Below, in pieces: positions 54,039-60,206 of a stretch of DNA of 64,000 nucleotides. The notes beneath the pieces are model-generated. The model had not been told where the DNA came from. It did no database searches and worked only from the letters and a program-made list of their open reading frames with translations. Numbering within the stretch: position 1 is the first letter of the stretch; each line of letters begins with the position of its first letter. The stretch spans positions 124,001 through 188,000 of the forward strand of contig NZ_JAJOMB010000012.1 in NCBI RefSeq assembly GCF_021129305.1. The letters are read 5' to 3'. This DNA comes from Kineosporia babensis (GTDB lineage Bacteria; Actinomycetota; Actinomycetes; Actinomycetales; Kineosporiaceae). The position numbers and the translations under genes are program-made.

Positions 54039-56648
54039 GTGGTCAGCGCGAAGGCCTTGTTCGAGCGCGCGATAGCGACGCATCTCGAGGCCTGGGGGCT
54101 GCTCGCCGCCGTCCGCGAGCGGCTGGACCGGCTGGAGGCCGACTCCACCCACAACGACGAGTCGGCCCAGCAGCAGACCGCGCTCGCCGCCCGGCTGGAA
54201 CGCGCCGCCGCCGAGGCCGCCCCGCAGTGGCTCGGCGCCCCCTGGCCGGTGATCGGCGAGCAACGCTTCCCCCTGGAACGCTCGGCCCGGCCCGGCGAGG
54301 CGTCAATGATCCGGGTGGCCGACGCCCAGCCCTTGCCCGGCGTCGGATTCCCGGTGGTGGTGCCGTTCGTCGGGGCCGGGCACATCGCGCTCGACGCCGA
54401 TGCCCGGGATCCCGCGGTGGCCGGGCTCCTGCGCAGCGTGATCACCCGGCTGATCGCCGGCTTCCCGGCCGGGCAGTTGCGCATCCTGGCCATCGACGGC
54501 GGTGCTCTGGGCGCCCCGCTGGCCCCTTTCCACAGCCTGATCCCGGCCGGGGTGATGAACCGCCCGGTCAGCGAGACCGACCAGTTCCGCGAGCTCCTCA
54601 CCGAGGCCGAGGACCAGGTCCACGCGGTCCAGTCGGGCCTCGAACGCTCGCCCGACGTGCTGGTGATCGTGGCCGCCGCGCTGCCCGCGAACTGCACCCG
54701 GGCCGACCTGGCCCGGATCAGCGCACTGGCGCACGCCGGCCCCGCCGCCCGGGTGCACCTGCTGCTGGCCGGTTACCCGAGCCTGTCTCGATCGTCCTGG
54801 GAGACCGGCCTGGAGAACACCACGCTGATCTCGACCGACCAGTCCTCGCGCGGGCACTTCCGGATCAGCGATCCGCCCGGCTCGTCGTTCGGCGCCGACG
54901 GCCGCGGCCTGAACGCCACCGTCACCCTCGACCCGCCGCCCCCGGCCGGCCTGATCGAGGAGCTCTGCCGGCAACTGGTGGCCAAGGCCGAGTCGGACAG
55001 CGCTCTGTCGTTCGATGCGCTGGTGCCCAAGCAGCTGTGGCAGGGTTCGTCGGTGGACGGGCTGCGCACCACCGTCGGCCGGGTCGGCCGGGGCGAGGCC
55101 ACGGTCTCCCTGGACGACGCCACCCCGCACTGGCTGGTGGCCGGGCGCACCGGTTCCGGCAAGACGGTGTTCCTGCTGGACGTGCTCTACGGTCTGGCCG
55201 CCCGTTACTCGCCCGACGAACTGTCGCTCTACCTTCTGGACTTCAAGGAGGGCGTCTCGTTCGCGGACTTCATGCCCTCGGCCAACGATCCCACCTGGGT
55301 GCCGCACGCCCGCACGGTCGGGGTGGAGTCAGACCGGGAGTACGGCGTGGCCGTGCTGGCCGACCTGGTGCGCGAGATGGGCCGCCGGGCCGGGGAGATG
55401 AAGCGCGCCGGGGTGACCAGCCTGAGCGCTCTGCGCAGCGCCCGGGCCGACGTCGCGATGCCCCGGATCGTCACCGTGATCGACGAGTTCCACGTGCTGT
55501 TCCAGGGCAACGACGACACCGCCAAGCGGGCGGTCGCGCTGCTGGAGGAGGTGGCCCGCAAGGGCCGCTCGTACGGCATCCACCTGATCATGGCCAGCCA
55601 GTCGATCTCCGGCATCGAGGCGCTGTTCACCAAGGGCACGTCGATCTTCGGGCAGTTCGGGATGCGGGTCGCGCTCTCCGGCGGGGGCGGCATCCTCGGC
55701 CTGAACAACGACGCGGCCGCTGCGCTGCCCACCGGCCAGGTGATCCTGAACCACGGCGCCGGGGTGGTCAGCGCCAACCGCCGGGCCCGTTTCCCGTTCG
55801 CCGACCCGGCCAGTCTGCACACCCTGCGGCACCGGATGTGGGACATGCGCACCCCCGGCACCCCGGAGCCCGCGGTCTTCATCGGGTACGCGGAGTACTC
55901 GGTGGACGAGGCGCCGTTGCCGGTGCGGCGGGGGCGGCGCAAGGTGGTGGCGGTCGGCCGGCAGGTCGACGTGGGCCTGCACACGGCCGGTTTCGCCCTG
56001 GACTCCTCGCCCGGCCGGCACCTGGGCGTGCTGGGCACCTCGCTGGTCGGCGCCGACGTGCTCACCTCGGCCGCGATCAGCCTGGCCAAGCAGCACGAGC
56101 CCGGCACCGCCACCTTCCACCTGATCAGCCTGGTCGGGACGGCCGAGGACACGGTGGAGGAGCTGCGGACCCGGCTTCGGGGGCAGGGGCACGAGGTCTC
56201 GATGCCCAACCTCACCCAGTACAAGGAACTGCTGCAGAAACTGGCGGCCGGGGCCTCGGCCGACCGAGACCATCCGCAGTACCTGTTCGTCTACGGCGCC
56301 GACGCCGCCTCCTCCACGCTGAAGCAGAAGGAGGGCCGTTCCCGCGCCGCGATCGAGGACTTCCGGACCGTCCTGCGCGAGGGCCCGGGCTGGGGCGTGC
56401 ACGTGTTCGGCTGGTGGCGCGGGGTCCGGCGGCTCAGCGACGACCTGGGTCTTTCCGGCAAGGACGACGTGGCCGGGATCGTCGCCCTGAACGTCAAGGG
56501 CAACGAGGTGGGCTCGCTGATCGGGCGGGTGCACCTGCAGTGGCAGCCCCGGCACAACCGGGCCCTGTTCATCGACCGGCACGAGGACAAGGACGACCTG
56601 ATCGTGCCGTTCGTGACGCCCGGCCGTTACAGCGAGGAGTTCGCCTGA
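54039..56648 (+). CDS. Orphan FtsK/SpoIIIE-type multi-domain ATPase
   Basis: 869 residues; GTG 54039 has CGGAGG 8 nt upstream. I see three RecA-like modules. Module 1 (about 100-290; GAGHIALDADARDP, LRILAIDGG) lacks a P-loop. Module 2 (about 330-600) is intact, with Walker A LVAGRTGSGKTVFLL, LYLLDFKEGVSFADF, Walker B RIVTVIDEFHVLFQ and the FtsK-like HLIMASQSISGIEALF. Module 3 (about 640-865) is degenerate (HLGVLGTSLVGAD, YLFVYGADA). One active plus two silent ATPase modules resembles EccC of type VII secretion, but no EccB/D/E, mycosin or WXG100 genes adjoin it. There are no transmembrane helices; the next gene could anchor it. Function unknown. Confidence 0.85.
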   Translation: MVSAKALFERAIATHLEAWGLLAAVRERLDRLEADSTHNDESAQQQTALAARLERAAAEAAPQWLGAPWPVIGEQRFPLERSARPGEASMIRVADAQPLPGVGFPVVVPFVGAGHIALDADARDPAVAGLLRSVITRLIAGFPAGQLRILAIDGGALGAPLAPFHSLIPAGVMNRPVSETDQFRELLTEAEDQVHAVQSGLERSPDVLVIVAAALPANCTRADLARISALAHAGPAARVHLLLAGYPSLSRSSWETGLENTTLISTDQSSRGHFRISDPPGSSFGADGRGLNATVTLDPPPPAGLIEELCRQLVAKAESDSALSFDALVPKQLWQGSSVDGLRTTVGRVGRGEATVSLDDATPHWLVAGRTGSGKTVFLLDVLYGLAARYSPDELSLYLLDFKEGVSFADFMPSANDPTWVPHARTVGVESDREYGVAVLADLVREMGRRAGEMKRAGVTSLSALRSARADVAMPRIVTVIDEFHVLFQGNDDTAKRAVALLEEVARKGRSYGIHLIMASQSISGIEALFTKGTSIFGQFGMRVALSGGGGILGLNNDAAAALPTGQVILNHGAGVVSANRRARFPFADPASLHTLRHRMWDMRTPGTPEPAVFIGYAEYSVDEAPLPVRRGRRKVVAVGRQVDVGLHTAGFALDSSPGRHLGVLGTSLVGADVLTSAAISLAKQHEPGTATFHLISLVGTAEDTVEELRTRLRGQGHEVSMPNLTQYKELLQKLAAGASADRDHPQYLFVYGADAASSTLKQKEGRSRAAIEDFRTVLREGPGWGVHVFGWWRGVRRLSDDLGLSGKDDVAGIVALNVKGNEVGSLIGRVHLQWQPRHNRALFIDRHEDKDDLIVPFVTPGRYSEEFA

Positions 56649-57295: not shown

Positions 57296-57440
57296 GCGGG
57301 TCCCGCCCGGCTGAGGTGCGGGTTCCGACACCGGCCCGACGCACTCCCGAAACTTTTTTGATCAATCCAAAGATCTTGTGCAGCAACGGGAATGCCGGTT
57401 TTTCTAGCCCGTTCGGGTGGGTGCTACGAAGTATTCGCCA

Positions 57441-57479
57441 TTAAATACGTTGTCCCTCGAGCACGGGGGCGTCTACTCT
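57441..57479 (+). promoter_or_regulatory. Candidate WhiB7-type autoregulated promoter
   Basis: AT-rich TTAAATAC (57441-57448) stands directly upstream of a -35-like TTGTCC (57450-57455), and TACTCT (57474-57479) follows after an 18-bp spacer. WhiB7 is known to activate promoters with an AT-rich patch just before the -35, bound by its AT-hook. The transcript would begin near 57486 and carry a leader of about 550 nt before the preferred whiB7 start. Confidence 0.65.
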
Positions 57480-57565
57480 CAACACGTTGTCGCCGATCGG
57501 GGACAACCGCCCTGCGGCTCGGCCTGAAGAAGGCCGGCCCGAGTATGACTGGAGGTGGGTAAGAC

Positions 57566-57856
57566 GTGAACACGATGAACATTCAATCGCGGAGCACGGT
57601 TACCACCTCGTCCTCGGGCGCCCCGTTGATGGGCTCAGCCCTGGCCGAAGGCCGGTATCGCGTCGGCGCCACCCTGCTCATGAGCACGGGTGGAGTCTGC
57701 CCGCAGCAGGTCACCGAACTGTCCCTGGATAGCACCTGGAACAGCGCCACCGGTGGCTTTGCCGGCGCCGAAGCGGGTCGTCCGACCCCCGTGCGCCCGA
57801 ACTCCAAGTCCTCCAAGCCCCGTTACGGGTCACTGGCCAGCGATGGCTCCGGATAG
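57566..57856 (+). CDS. Leader ORF (uORF) upstream of whiB7
   Basis: 96 codons from GTG 57566 with a strong GGAGGTG 8 nt upstream, ending TAG 24 nt before a perfect terminator. The peptide is Ser/Thr/Gly-rich (STVTTSSSGAPLMGSALA; GGVCPQQVTELSLDSTW) with no known domain or signal. Position between the promoter and a terminator in front of whiB7 fits the upstream ORF of whiB7/wblC attenuation, where ribosome stalling by antibiotics permits read-through. It is longer than I would expect for a leader peptide, so it might also have a function of its own. Confidence 0.6.
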   Translation: MNTMNIQSRSTVTTSSSGAPLMGSALAEGRYRVGATLLMSTGGVCPQQVTELSLDSTWNSATGGFAGAEAGRPTPVRPNSKSSKPRYGSLASDGSG

Positions 57857-57880
57857 GCAACCCACCTTTCCGGCCTCGCC

Positions 57881-57917
57881 AAAAGCCGTGGACCCCGCTG
57901 GGGGTCCACGGCTTTTT
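57881..57917 (+). terminator. Intrinsic terminator/attenuator in front of whiB7
   Basis: 16-bp perfect stem (57881-57896 with 57901-57916), GCTG loop and a run of five T. The most canonical rho-independent terminator in the window. It lies between the leader ORF and whiB7 on the same strand, so it must be read through for whiB7 to be made from the upstream promoter. Confidence 0.9.
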
Positions 57918-58035
57918 CGTTGTCTGGCAAGGGTTTACGGATCCAGTGATGAAACAAACGCCCGTTTCCGATGTAGCGAGAGATGAAACAGCTTCCGGCC
58001 CGAGCCGGGAGAACAACCCGAGGGGGATGAAACCC

Positions 58036-58326
58036 GTGCAGCTCACCGCCTTGCTCGACGCCTTGGTGGAAGAGGTCGACCCGATCTCCACCGAGATGCC
58101 ATGCCGGGTGTTCGACGCGGAACTCTGGTTCGCCGAGTCTCCGACGGATGTGGAGCACGCGAAGGCTCTGTGCCAGGACTGCCCGGTGCGCCAGGAGTGC
58201 CTGGCCGGAGCACTGGACCGGCACGAACCGTGGGGGGTCTGGGGCGGCGAGCTCTTCGTCGCCGGCGTGGTCGTTCCGCGCAAGCGCCCCCGGGGCCGGC
58301 CGCGCAAGGTCGTGGTGGCGGCCTGA
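58036..58326 (+). CDS. whiB7: WhiB7-type (WblC) iron-sulfur transcriptional regulator
   Basis: About 96 residues. It binds a 4Fe-4S cluster through four Cys (EMPCRVF; LCQDCPVRQEC) and pairs with the primary sigma factor. The Gly/Trp turn EPWGVWGGELF is followed by a C-terminal AT-hook KRPRGRPRK, specific to WhiB7. It activates intrinsic antibiotic-resistance genes and itself. GTG 58036 is preferred because AGGGGG lies 9 nt upstream and the distance to the first Cys resembles M. tuberculosis WhiB7; in-frame ATG 57946 and ATG 58027 are alternatives. Gene order with uvrD2, nudC and an ABC1 kinase matches Rv3197-Rv3199c. Confidence 0.93.
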   Translation: MQLTALLDALVEEVDPISTEMPCRVFDAELWFAESPTDVEHAKALCQDCPVRQECLAGALDRHEPWGVWGGELFVAGVVVPRKRPRGRPRKVVVAA

Positions 58327-58426: not shown

Positions 58427-58594
58427 ATGCACGCCAATCTGTACAACTTCGAGCTGATCAAGATCGAGCACGACGAGGCGCTGCGGCTGGCGGCCGACGA
58501 GCGGTGGGCGACCATCGTCCGTCGTGCCAACCGCCGCACCCGGCGCGCGTTGTGGACCAAGGTGATCCCGGCCCTTCGTGCGGTCACCGGCTGA
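58427..58594 (+). CDS. Small basic protein downstream of whiB7 (55 aa)
   Basis: ATG 58427 with TAGGGGGA as Shine-Dalgarno six bases upstream; 55 codons to TGA. The N-terminal half is acidic/helical (FELIKIEHDEALRLAADERW), the C-terminal half strongly basic (VRRANRRTRRALWTK). No cysteines, no signal peptide. Codon usage matches surrounding genes. It resembles small nucleic-acid-binding peptides in charge only; function unknown. A 100-bp gap separates it from whiB7, so it may have its own promoter. Confidence 0.65.
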   Translation: MHANLYNFELIKIEHDEALRLAADERWATIVRRANRRTRRALWTKVIPALRAVTG

Positions 58595-58760: not shown

Positions 58761-60206
58761 ATGAGTCGTCATGCCGTTGCCGTCGCTATCGCCGAGGCCC
58801 TGACCGCACCGGAGTTCGCCGCGATCGTCGACCTGGTGGCCTACCCCGTCGAAAACGCCGACGGGCAGCGGGCGGTGACGGTCCACGGACAGCACGGCGT
58901 GGTCCGGTTGCACCCCGACGAGCGGCACGAAGTCATCGCCGGAAGCGACCCGGTGGCCAACACAGACCCGCTCGCGTTCCTCCCGTATGACCAAGAATGC
59001 GCCGACCCGTCCCCAGAGAACCGGCGCAACGCGTACCCCGAACCCGCCCGGCGCCTGCTGTCTTTCTTCGCCGACGCCGACCGCAGCCCCGACGTTGTCA
59101 TCGTTCACACCCCATCGCACTACTTCCCCGATACTGGCGGCCACCGCGGCGAACACGGCTCCCTCGACGTGATTCAGTCCCGGGCGCCATTTCTGCTGTC
59201 CGGGGCAGGGGTAGCCAAACGCGGCCCGATCGAGGGTTACGCCCGCATGGTCGACGTGACCCCGACGCTTCTGAGCCTGGCCGGTGTTCCGGTACCCGAT
59301 GGCCTTGACGGTGCCGCGTGGGTGGTGGACGGAACTCCGGGCCGTTACGTGGTTGGCCTGCTCTGGGACGGCGCTCACTGTTCGGACCTGCTGGAGTTGG
59401 CCGCGTCCGGAGAGTTGCCCAACGTGGCGGCGTTGCTGTCCGACGGTCTGGCATTGACCGGGGGAGCGGTGGCCGAGTTCCCCAGCGTGACTCTGGCGAA
59501 CCACACCTCGGCGCTGACCGGGGTAGGGCCGGGCCGGCACGGAATCCTCGGCAACGTTTTCTACGACCGGGCGCGGGGCGAGCAGATCAACGCCAACGAC
59601 GAGAGCACCTGGCACCGCAGCGCCGAGTGGCTCCGGCCGGAGGTGGCTACGGTCTTCGAGATGCTGGGGGCCCGGAGTATCTGTGTGAACGAGGCGGTCG
59701 ACCGTGGGGCCACCTGGTCGACGATGCAGGTGATCCGCTCGCTGGACGGGGGCGTCTCGAATCTGCTGCCCCCGGCGGAGCACAGCGCCTACCTGGGGAA
59801 CCCCGAGCATCTGGCCGACCGCTATTTCCGCTGGGCCACGCAGGTCGACGACGCCGGGCTCGAGCAGGTCCTGGGCGAGTGGGCCGATCCGTCCGGCCTT
59901 CCGGACCTGACCTGGTGGGCCTCGGTGATCACCGACGCCGGGCATCACGCCGGCGGGCCGCGTTCGCCGATCGCCCGCGACAGTCTGCGTGACGCGGACC
60001 GGCGGCTCGGCGGGTTCCTGGCCCGGCTGGACTCGCTCGGGCTGCGCGAGGAGGTGACCTTCCTGCTCACGGCCGACCACGGGTTCGAGACGGCGGACGA
60101 GTCGGTCACCGGCTCGTGGGCACCGGCGCTGGCCGATGTCTGTGGGCAACTGGGGGTTACCTACCGCGACGAAGGACCGGGCTTCGTCTATCTGAACGCC
60201 AGGTGA
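58761..60206 (+). CDS. Alkaline-phosphatase-superfamily phosphodiesterase with extra N-terminal half-domain
   Basis: About 481 residues from ATG 58761. The catalytic part (about 197-481) resembles nucleotide pyrophosphatase/phosphodiesterases: YVVGLLWDGAHC (metal Asp), AEFPSVTLANHTSALTG with the nucleophilic Thr, RHGILGNVFYD, ITDAGHHAGGP (Asp/His) and LLTADHGFETAD. The N-terminal ~195 residues look like the C-terminal half of a sulfatase-type fold (GEHGSLDVIQSRAPFLLSG; DVTPTLLSLAGVPVPDGLDG), so the order is half-domain followed by complete domain. No signal peptide. Substrate unknown; cytosolic phosphonate or nucleotide ester hydrolysis is possible. Confidence 0.82.
   Translation: MSRHAVAVAIAEALTAPEFAAIVDLVAYPVENADGQRAVTVHGQHGVVRLHPDERHEVIAGSDPVANTDPLAFLPYDQECADPSPENRRNAYPEPARRLLSFFADADRSPDVVIVHTPSHYFPDTGGHRGEHGSLDVIQSRAPFLLSGAGVAKRGPIEGYARMVDVTPTLLSLAGVPVPDGLDGAAWVVDGTPGRYVVGLLWDGAHCSDLLELAASGELPNVAALLSDGLALTGGAVAEFPSVTLANHTSALTGVGPGRHGILGNVFYDRARGEQINANDESTWHRSAEWLRPEVATVFEMLGARSICVNEAVDRGATWSTMQVIRSLDGGVSNLLPPAEHSAYLGNPEHLADRYFRWATQVDDAGLEQVLGEWADPSGLPDLTWWASVITDAGHHAGGPRSPIARDSLRDADRRLGGFLARLDSLGLREEVTFLLTADHGFETADESVTGSWAPALADVCGQLGVTYRDEGPGFVYLNAR

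Follow-up and report, generated by a model that had tools for sequence, protein, structure and literature searches.

Transcription of whiB7 in Kineosporia babensis is very probably governed by a ribosome-controlled attenuator located 5′ of this putatively autoactivated gene; WhiB7/WblC drives intrinsic antibiotic resistance in actinobacteria. This reading draws on the anatomy and conservation of the locus, on two mutually exclusive predicted folds of the leader RNA, on constraint at all positions of the last leader codons and on a near-neutral leader body that keeps its frame. The locus belongs to the already known whiB7/wblC attenuator type, with details corrected here; the pattern of residue coverage that emerges from the leaders of many lineages is new.

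Organization of the whiB7 locus

The window, the whole 64-kb stretch of DNA that was analysed, is a piece of an actinobacterial chromosome (source assembly, 9.4 Mb). Promoter, leader ORF, terminator and whiB7 follow one another (Table 1) in the same layout as in the five other Kineosporia loci fetched, and the elements listed by the first-pass annotation, namely an AT-rich patch, a −35/−10 pair, a 96-codon ORF with a Shine–Dalgarno site, a 16-bp terminator and whiB7, are all read directly. Both promoter hexamers are identical in the six Kineosporia, and TTAAATACGTTGTCC together with the −10 is the same in each of them. Judged by its sequence and its conservation in all six, the AT-rich element directly 5′ of the −35 corresponds to that of whiB7/wblC attenuators, and its TTAAATACG is presumably the WhiB7 AT-hook site. 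A second conserved AT-rich block (57341–57385) is located 5′ of the promoter; within it, GCAC and AAACTTTTTT (57350–57359) are kept in all six Kineosporia, and the A-rich and TTG stretches that come after AAACTTTTTT are kept less strictly.

The terminator stem is a perfect 16-bp inverted repeat with a 4-nt loop that runs into TTTTT, and one of its pairs shows a compensatory change. The RNA spanning positions 57860–57945 folds at −46.8 kcal/mol (z = −5.3), a stability equalled by none of 200 shuffles. Measured from the first base of the leader's TAG, the stem starts 27 nt downstream, and 27 nt is also the median spacing, counted in the same way, among 96 leaders including that of the window. 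A leader ORF with a Shine–Dalgarno site and an intrinsic terminator just 3′ of it is the arrangement of the whiB7/wblC attenuators. A simple consensus scan listed no promoters and no terminators at the locus, which is attributed to the rules of the scan, as the −10 follows the TANNNT pattern and the stem includes the U-run. At the gathering score, no riboswitch, T-box or other leader described in Rfam matched the 64-kb window.

The downstream gene encodes WhiB7, with the WhiB domain and AT-hook expected of a whiB7/wblC attenuator: the Pfam Whib domain scores 60.3 bits, and the best match among solved structures is WhiB7 (7kif, E = 4e-29). The Pfam match of the AT-hook falls just below the cut-off (16.8 versus 17.4), with the RGRPRK motif present. 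GTG 58036 is most likely the start codon, because six Kineosporiaceae loci (L014–L019) begin at ATGCAGCTCA after GGAGGTG; ATG 58027, considered as a start, was rejected by the Kineosporiaceae starts.

A 15-codon ORF (ATG 57983, TGA 58028–58030) ends 5 nt before the whiB7 GTG. By eye, its length is unchanged in the six Kineosporia, and a small hairpin inside it (57992–57998/58005–58011) has pair-keeping changes; in the window, the sequence at 57983–58030 folds with no clear advantage over shuffles (z = −0.95). An FtsK/SpoIIIE-like ATPase gene lies upstream of the locus (54039–56648), and a 55-aa ORF with no NCBIfam or Pfam match (58427–58594) and a type I phosphodiesterase-like gene (58770–60206) lie downstream.

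Table 1 Features of the whiB7 attenuation locus, in window coordinates
Feature	Position	Strand	Details
AT-rich element TTAAATACG	57441–57449	+	Adjoins −35; sequence identical in six of six Kineosporia
whiB7 promoter	57450–57479	+	−35 TTGTCC (57450–57455), 18-nt spacer, −10 TACTCT (57474–57479)
Leader-ORF Shine–Dalgarno GGAGGTGG	57551–57558	+	Read directly; Shine–Dalgarno 5′ of the leader ORF in six of six Kineosporia
Leader ORF (uORF)	57566–57856	+	GTG start, 96 codons, TAG stop (57854–57856)
Antiterminator 5′ strand (predicted)	57827–57853	+	GGGUC, GGC, GCGA, GGC, CGGA; last leader-ORF codons
Antiterminator 3′ strand (predicted)	57869–57895	+	UCCG, GCC, UCGC, GCC, GACCC
Intrinsic terminator	57881–57917	+	Arms 57881–57896 and 57901–57916, U-run to 57917
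whiB7 Shine–Dalgarno GAGGGGG	58020–58026	+	
whiB7	58036–58326	+	WhiB domain and C-terminal AT-hook KRPRGRPRK

Conservation of the leader among whiB7 loci

Alignment of leaders from related genomes, which the first-pass annotation had proposed as a check, found the leader ORF (89–96 codons) and the terminator conserved in all six Kineosporia; this conservation and papers on the same system back its suggestion that whiB7 is controlled by leader-ORF attenuation. For the wider counts, duplicates (L008, L038, L039, L040, L043 and L054) and WhiB-family matches from the window's own genome (L001–L007, of which L006 is whiB7 itself) were dropped beforehand. The leader-ORF rule kept 100 of 105 loci (those without a leader ORF being L020, L021, L041, L051 and L112), and an arm search, which replaced an earlier terminator rule that had found only 43, identified terminators in 96 of the 100 leaders, 54 of them from a related Streptomyces group. 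The leaders lacking a terminator by this rule are L035 and those of three Glycomyces loci (L094, L101 and L113), whiB7-like and with long upstream ORFs, which possibly represent different control or a paralogue. In a set of new genera, for which the rule for leaders was fixed beforehand, 96 of 129 loci passed; the 33 that failed include all those tried from families f2, f3, f8, f11, f12, f28 and f52 and eight of nine from family f14, and the layout, or the leader-finding rule, is therefore not universal.

The leader ORF had been described as unusually long, which the comparison does not bear out: 100 whiB7 leaders, that of the window included, span 48–198 aa (the longest having doubtful starts), lengths near 108 are common in the Streptomyces group, and the leaders of 78 further genera measure 37–160 aa. 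The leader peptide has no match to any NCBIfam or Pfam family, and no relative of it was found in viral contigs.

A predicted antiterminator around the leader stop codon

The antiterminator is predicted to be one interrupted hairpin around the leader stop codon, whose 3′ strand extends into the terminator's 5′ arm (57885–57895). In these models it is a better candidate than the pairing of GGCTTT with AAAGCC put forward by the first-pass annotation; exact GGCTTT is found near the corresponding position in only three of the six Kineosporia leaders (one shifted by 9 nt). As a predicted structure with conservation behind it, an antiterminator that joins the end of the leader ORF to the terminator's 5′ arm conforms to the whiB7/wblC type.

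In pre-terminator RNA starting 110 nt before the stop codon, GGGUC..GGC pairs with the terminator's 5′ arm in the minimum-energy folds of all six Kineosporia; in the window, GGGUC (57827–57831) pairs with GACCC (57891–57895), with inner helices around the stop codon. For the window, moving the start of the RNA to 60 nt ahead of the stop codon yields a minimum-energy fold in which GGGUC has an upstream partner and the arm is only partly paired. Alifold applied to the six Kineosporia gives the antiterminator hairpin as consensus, and the consensus fold of 22 Streptomyces-group leaders has the same hairpin topology built from other sequences; a mixed alignment of 20 leaders (A3) gave no consensus fold. 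Across the six Kineosporia, 98.5% of cells for the 22 hairpin pairs are standard, versus 33–55% when the pairs are slid, a count made on the same six sequences from which the hairpin was derived. Covariation of the antiterminator in Kineosporia was zero, because its columns are nearly invariant there, and shuffles cannot test the pairs (500 of 500).

Over the 96 leaders, pairing between the ORF end and the terminator's 5′ arm has a mean probability of 0.69, versus 0.41 for shuffled ORF ends, and of 0.55 with a ribosome modelled on the stop codon. The corresponding pairing in the window is 0.50 versus 0.29 (4 of 30 shuffles being as high), and the window's hairpin, taken by itself, outdoes shuffles by only a small margin (z = −2.3, 5 of 200). 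Placing a model ribosome at the stop lowers the upstream pairing of the arm in four of the six Kineosporia (from 0.50 to 0.29 in the window), with no drop in L009 or L010. The complete leader RNA folds into the terminator in all six, and the antiterminator would therefore have to win by forming first.

Constraint on the leader peptide and its RNA

The leader body is near-neutral, with a median dN/dS of 0.88 in Kineosporia and 0.92 in 22 Streptomyces-group leaders, and identities of 0.63, 0.65 and 0.64 at codon positions 1, 2 and 3 in Kineosporia. These values speak against a classical arrest peptide of the ErmCL type, in which a specific nascent leader sequence would stall a drug-bound ribosome (for example, one carrying a macrolide), an explanation that we regard as unlikely. 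Its appeal comes from the R/K-X-R/K motif, at which macrolides can stall ribosomes according to the accessible parts of PMC12121999 and PMC8298421. With one leader per genus, the motif occurs 99 times versus 60.7 in within-peptide shuffles (0 of 400), an enrichment that ordinary protein windows lack (80 versus 84.6), and it is also enriched in 32 other exploratory leaders (40 versus 24.2, 0 of 500) and in the six Kineosporia (8 versus 3.1, 5 of 500), the window leader having RYR at codon 30 and KPR at codon 84. However, the motif is present in only four of the six Kineosporia, being missing from L012 and L013, and it is depleted in the 54 Streptomyces-group leaders (within L055–L117; 30 versus 48.9). 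Arrest at such a peptide would at most add to general sensing, the motifs being at best a lineage-dependent addition.

Conservation of the leader is highest in its last 16 codons (identities of 0.94, 0.87 and 0.93 at positions 1, 2 and 3 in Kineosporia), and ..PPV endings recur in many genera, as might be expected if the sensor at termination were a conserved peptide at the C terminus (SLASDGSG in the window, ..PPV or PWRDPA in other leaders). This is nevertheless highly improbable, as the same codons make up the hairpin's predicted 5′ strand, conservation at their third positions is similar to that at the other two, and CCGG by the stop is kept in another frame outside Kineosporia. All six Kineosporia have CCGGA-TAG, and CCGGTC followed by the stop was counted by eye in 10 of the 17 non-Kineosporia rows of the mixed alignment A3; a similar piece of RNA is read in different frames (SLASDGSG versus ..PPV), which argues for constraint on the RNA. 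As far as the aligned sequences can tell, conservation at the ORF end thus argues for RNA pairing over the peptide as its explanation, and the Kineosporia C-terminus, with its similar RNA element in the other frame, helps to separate the two kinds of constraint. That the locus holds a plain constitutive terminator or a small-RNA gene 5′ of whiB7, with the ORF untranslated, is scarcely credible: the terminator alone is very strong, but an open frame of 89–96 codons stands behind a Shine–Dalgarno site in all six Kineosporia, with a steady stop–terminator distance and a competing hairpin.

Amino acid coverage of the leaders

In many lineages, the leader of the attenuator could be a selected panel of residues that drifts almost freely, almost every amino acid being decoded before the switch closes; it would then act as a general gauge of charged tRNAs and of ribosome progress, its length would be needed for the panel, and macrolide-arrest motifs would have been added in many. 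We give this reading an even chance.

On its own, the window leader is unremarkable, with 19 kinds of residue in 96 codons versus about 18.1 expected. In the exploratory set, from which L042, L046, L047 and L052 were also dropped for residue counts owing to doubtful starts, 51 of the 54 Streptomyces-group leaders contain all 20 residues (expectation 11.9 with ordinary protein windows and 8.0 with stop-free shuffles), as do 11 of the 32 other leaders (expectation 0.9 with protein windows or shuffles) and three of the six Kineosporia (0.6 expected).

A further test took one locus per genus from 78 genera, some of which may overlap the exploratory set, leaving out the Streptomyces-like genus g110. 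These leaders contain on average 18.32 kinds of residue, versus 16.85 in shuffles, 17.20 in proteome windows and 15.35 in the other two frames. The leader exceeds the shuffle mean in 69 genera (9 below) and the proteome mean in 63 (15 below); taken singly, 24 genera reach p < 0.05 against shuffles and 13 against proteome windows. All 20 residues are present in 26 of the 78, where 2.4 (shuffles) and 5.3 (proteome windows) are expected. By family, the excess is positive in 24 of 29 and negative in five; families f13, f14, f26, f38 and f39 lie below their shuffles. Permuting residues among leaders with the pooled composition fixed gave an expectation of 17.46 kinds, with none of 1,000 permutations reaching 18.32, and a mean of 6.6 leaders with all 20 residues (highest 15) versus the 26 observed.

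The excess persists with one leader per family (37 families; 18.19 versus 17.35 kinds, 0 of 2,000), a set in which the representatives share little body sequence (two pairs at E < 1e-3). Ordinary protein windows go the opposite way in the 37-family test (mean z = −2.2), as do 42 small flank ORFs in their mean number of residue kinds (z = −4.8), eight of which have all 20 residues with 5.9 expected. Removal of the last 12 codons leaves the excess in place (z = 5.7 by family and 8.3 by genus), with all 20 residues in 4 of 37 families and 13 of 78 genera, and the excess survives the use of the shortest start with Shine–Dalgarno support (z = 7.3). It is weak in leaders of less than 60 aa, for which 16 of 500 permutations reach the observed value, and 37 of 500 do so for short leaders without the tail (seven leaders). 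In the window's own order, 14 genera of other families average 16.29 kinds versus 15.42 in shuffles and 16.18 in proteome windows (eight above and six below the latter), and the effect there is therefore weak.

Among 25 Streptomyces-group leaders of less than 75% identity (median body identity 0.38), His is present in all 25 over 18 alignment columns, as a single copy in 15, and Tyr in all 25 over 11 columns, as a single copy in 19; Cys is present in 23, at one column in 20 of them. The residue is thus retained while its place in the leader shifts, a pattern less marked for Cys. The variety of codons in the leader also exceeds the prediction from genome usage in 34 of 37 families, as relaxed codon choice would explain too. 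Leaders are not enriched in polyproline (39 versus 40.8) and do not avoid identical neighbours (529 versus 492.4), so that repeat avoidance does not explain the residue coverage.

A long, drifting, residue-rich leader would fit a sensor of any failure along the approximately 85 codons before the switch region. The panel would account for one leader answering many drugs as well as starvation, and for many leaders being about 100 codons long with peptides that are not conserved. In the open-access literature, no paper tying whiB7 leaders to all 20 amino acids was found among the matches listed; the idea may be in Lee 2022.

Proposed mechanism of attenuation

In whiB7/wblC systems, as described in the accessible parts of PMC11550727, PMC13393426 and PMC10727445, complete translation of the leader breaks the antiterminator and the terminator forms, with the reverse outcome upon an early stall. 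At the Kineosporia locus, RNA polymerase, followed by a ribosome, would transcribe the leader ORF of 96 codons. A ribosome at the stop codon would cover the hairpin formed by the last ORF codons and the following 40 nt, leaving the arm at 57881–57896 free, and the terminator would halt transcription. A ribosome-targeting drug or an uncharged tRNA would cause the ribosome to stall early, lag or fall off; in each case, the GGGUC...GACCC hairpin would form first and capture the terminator's 5′ arm, permitting read-through into whiB7, and WhiB7 would then activate its own promoter. The switching itself, its inducers and the autoactivation, reported for whiB7 elsewhere, may be expected to hold here.

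Available sections of PMC12421871 and PMC12121999 report that amino-acid starvation also induces whiB7/wblC, and those of PMC4128351 report a conserved leader ORF and terminator in mycobacteria. Antibiotic stalling of ribosomes inside the whiB7/wblC leader ORF is called still untested in the part of a 2025 paper that is accessible (PMC12121999).

Comparison with known systems

The closest counterpart is the whiB7/wblC attenuator of Streptomyces and Mycobacterium (Lee, Lee and Roe 2022, doi 10.1111/mmi.14834), which, as described in papers that cite that work, has the same regulator, AT-rich promoter, leader ORF and terminator, and also the same sharing of the antiterminator between ORF end and terminator arm. 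The terminator arms differ, being AAAAGCCGUGGACCCC in Kineosporia and AGGCCGCGGAACCC in many relatives, and the Kineosporia peptide ends in SLASDGSG rather than ..PPV or PWRDPA, since similar RNA elements are translated there in a different frame.

The leaders of trp, his and ilv operate on the same principle, the position of the ribosome picking terminator or antiterminator, and their peptides are short, with an abundance of the regulatory residue. The Kineosporia leader, by contrast, is long and contains 19 of the 20 residues, with no run of a single residue beyond three Ser, unlike a single-amino-acid leader. A case of attenuation at an ilvB1 leader is described in the accessible part of PMC13236596. 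In Escherichia coli, the toiL–topAI system likewise relies on a uORF, and toiL, according to the available text of PMC12121999, detects antibiotics of several ribosome-targeting classes, with stalls that occur at different positions; its action is on a ribosome-binding site and Rho, whereas the Kineosporia leader would act on an intrinsic terminator.
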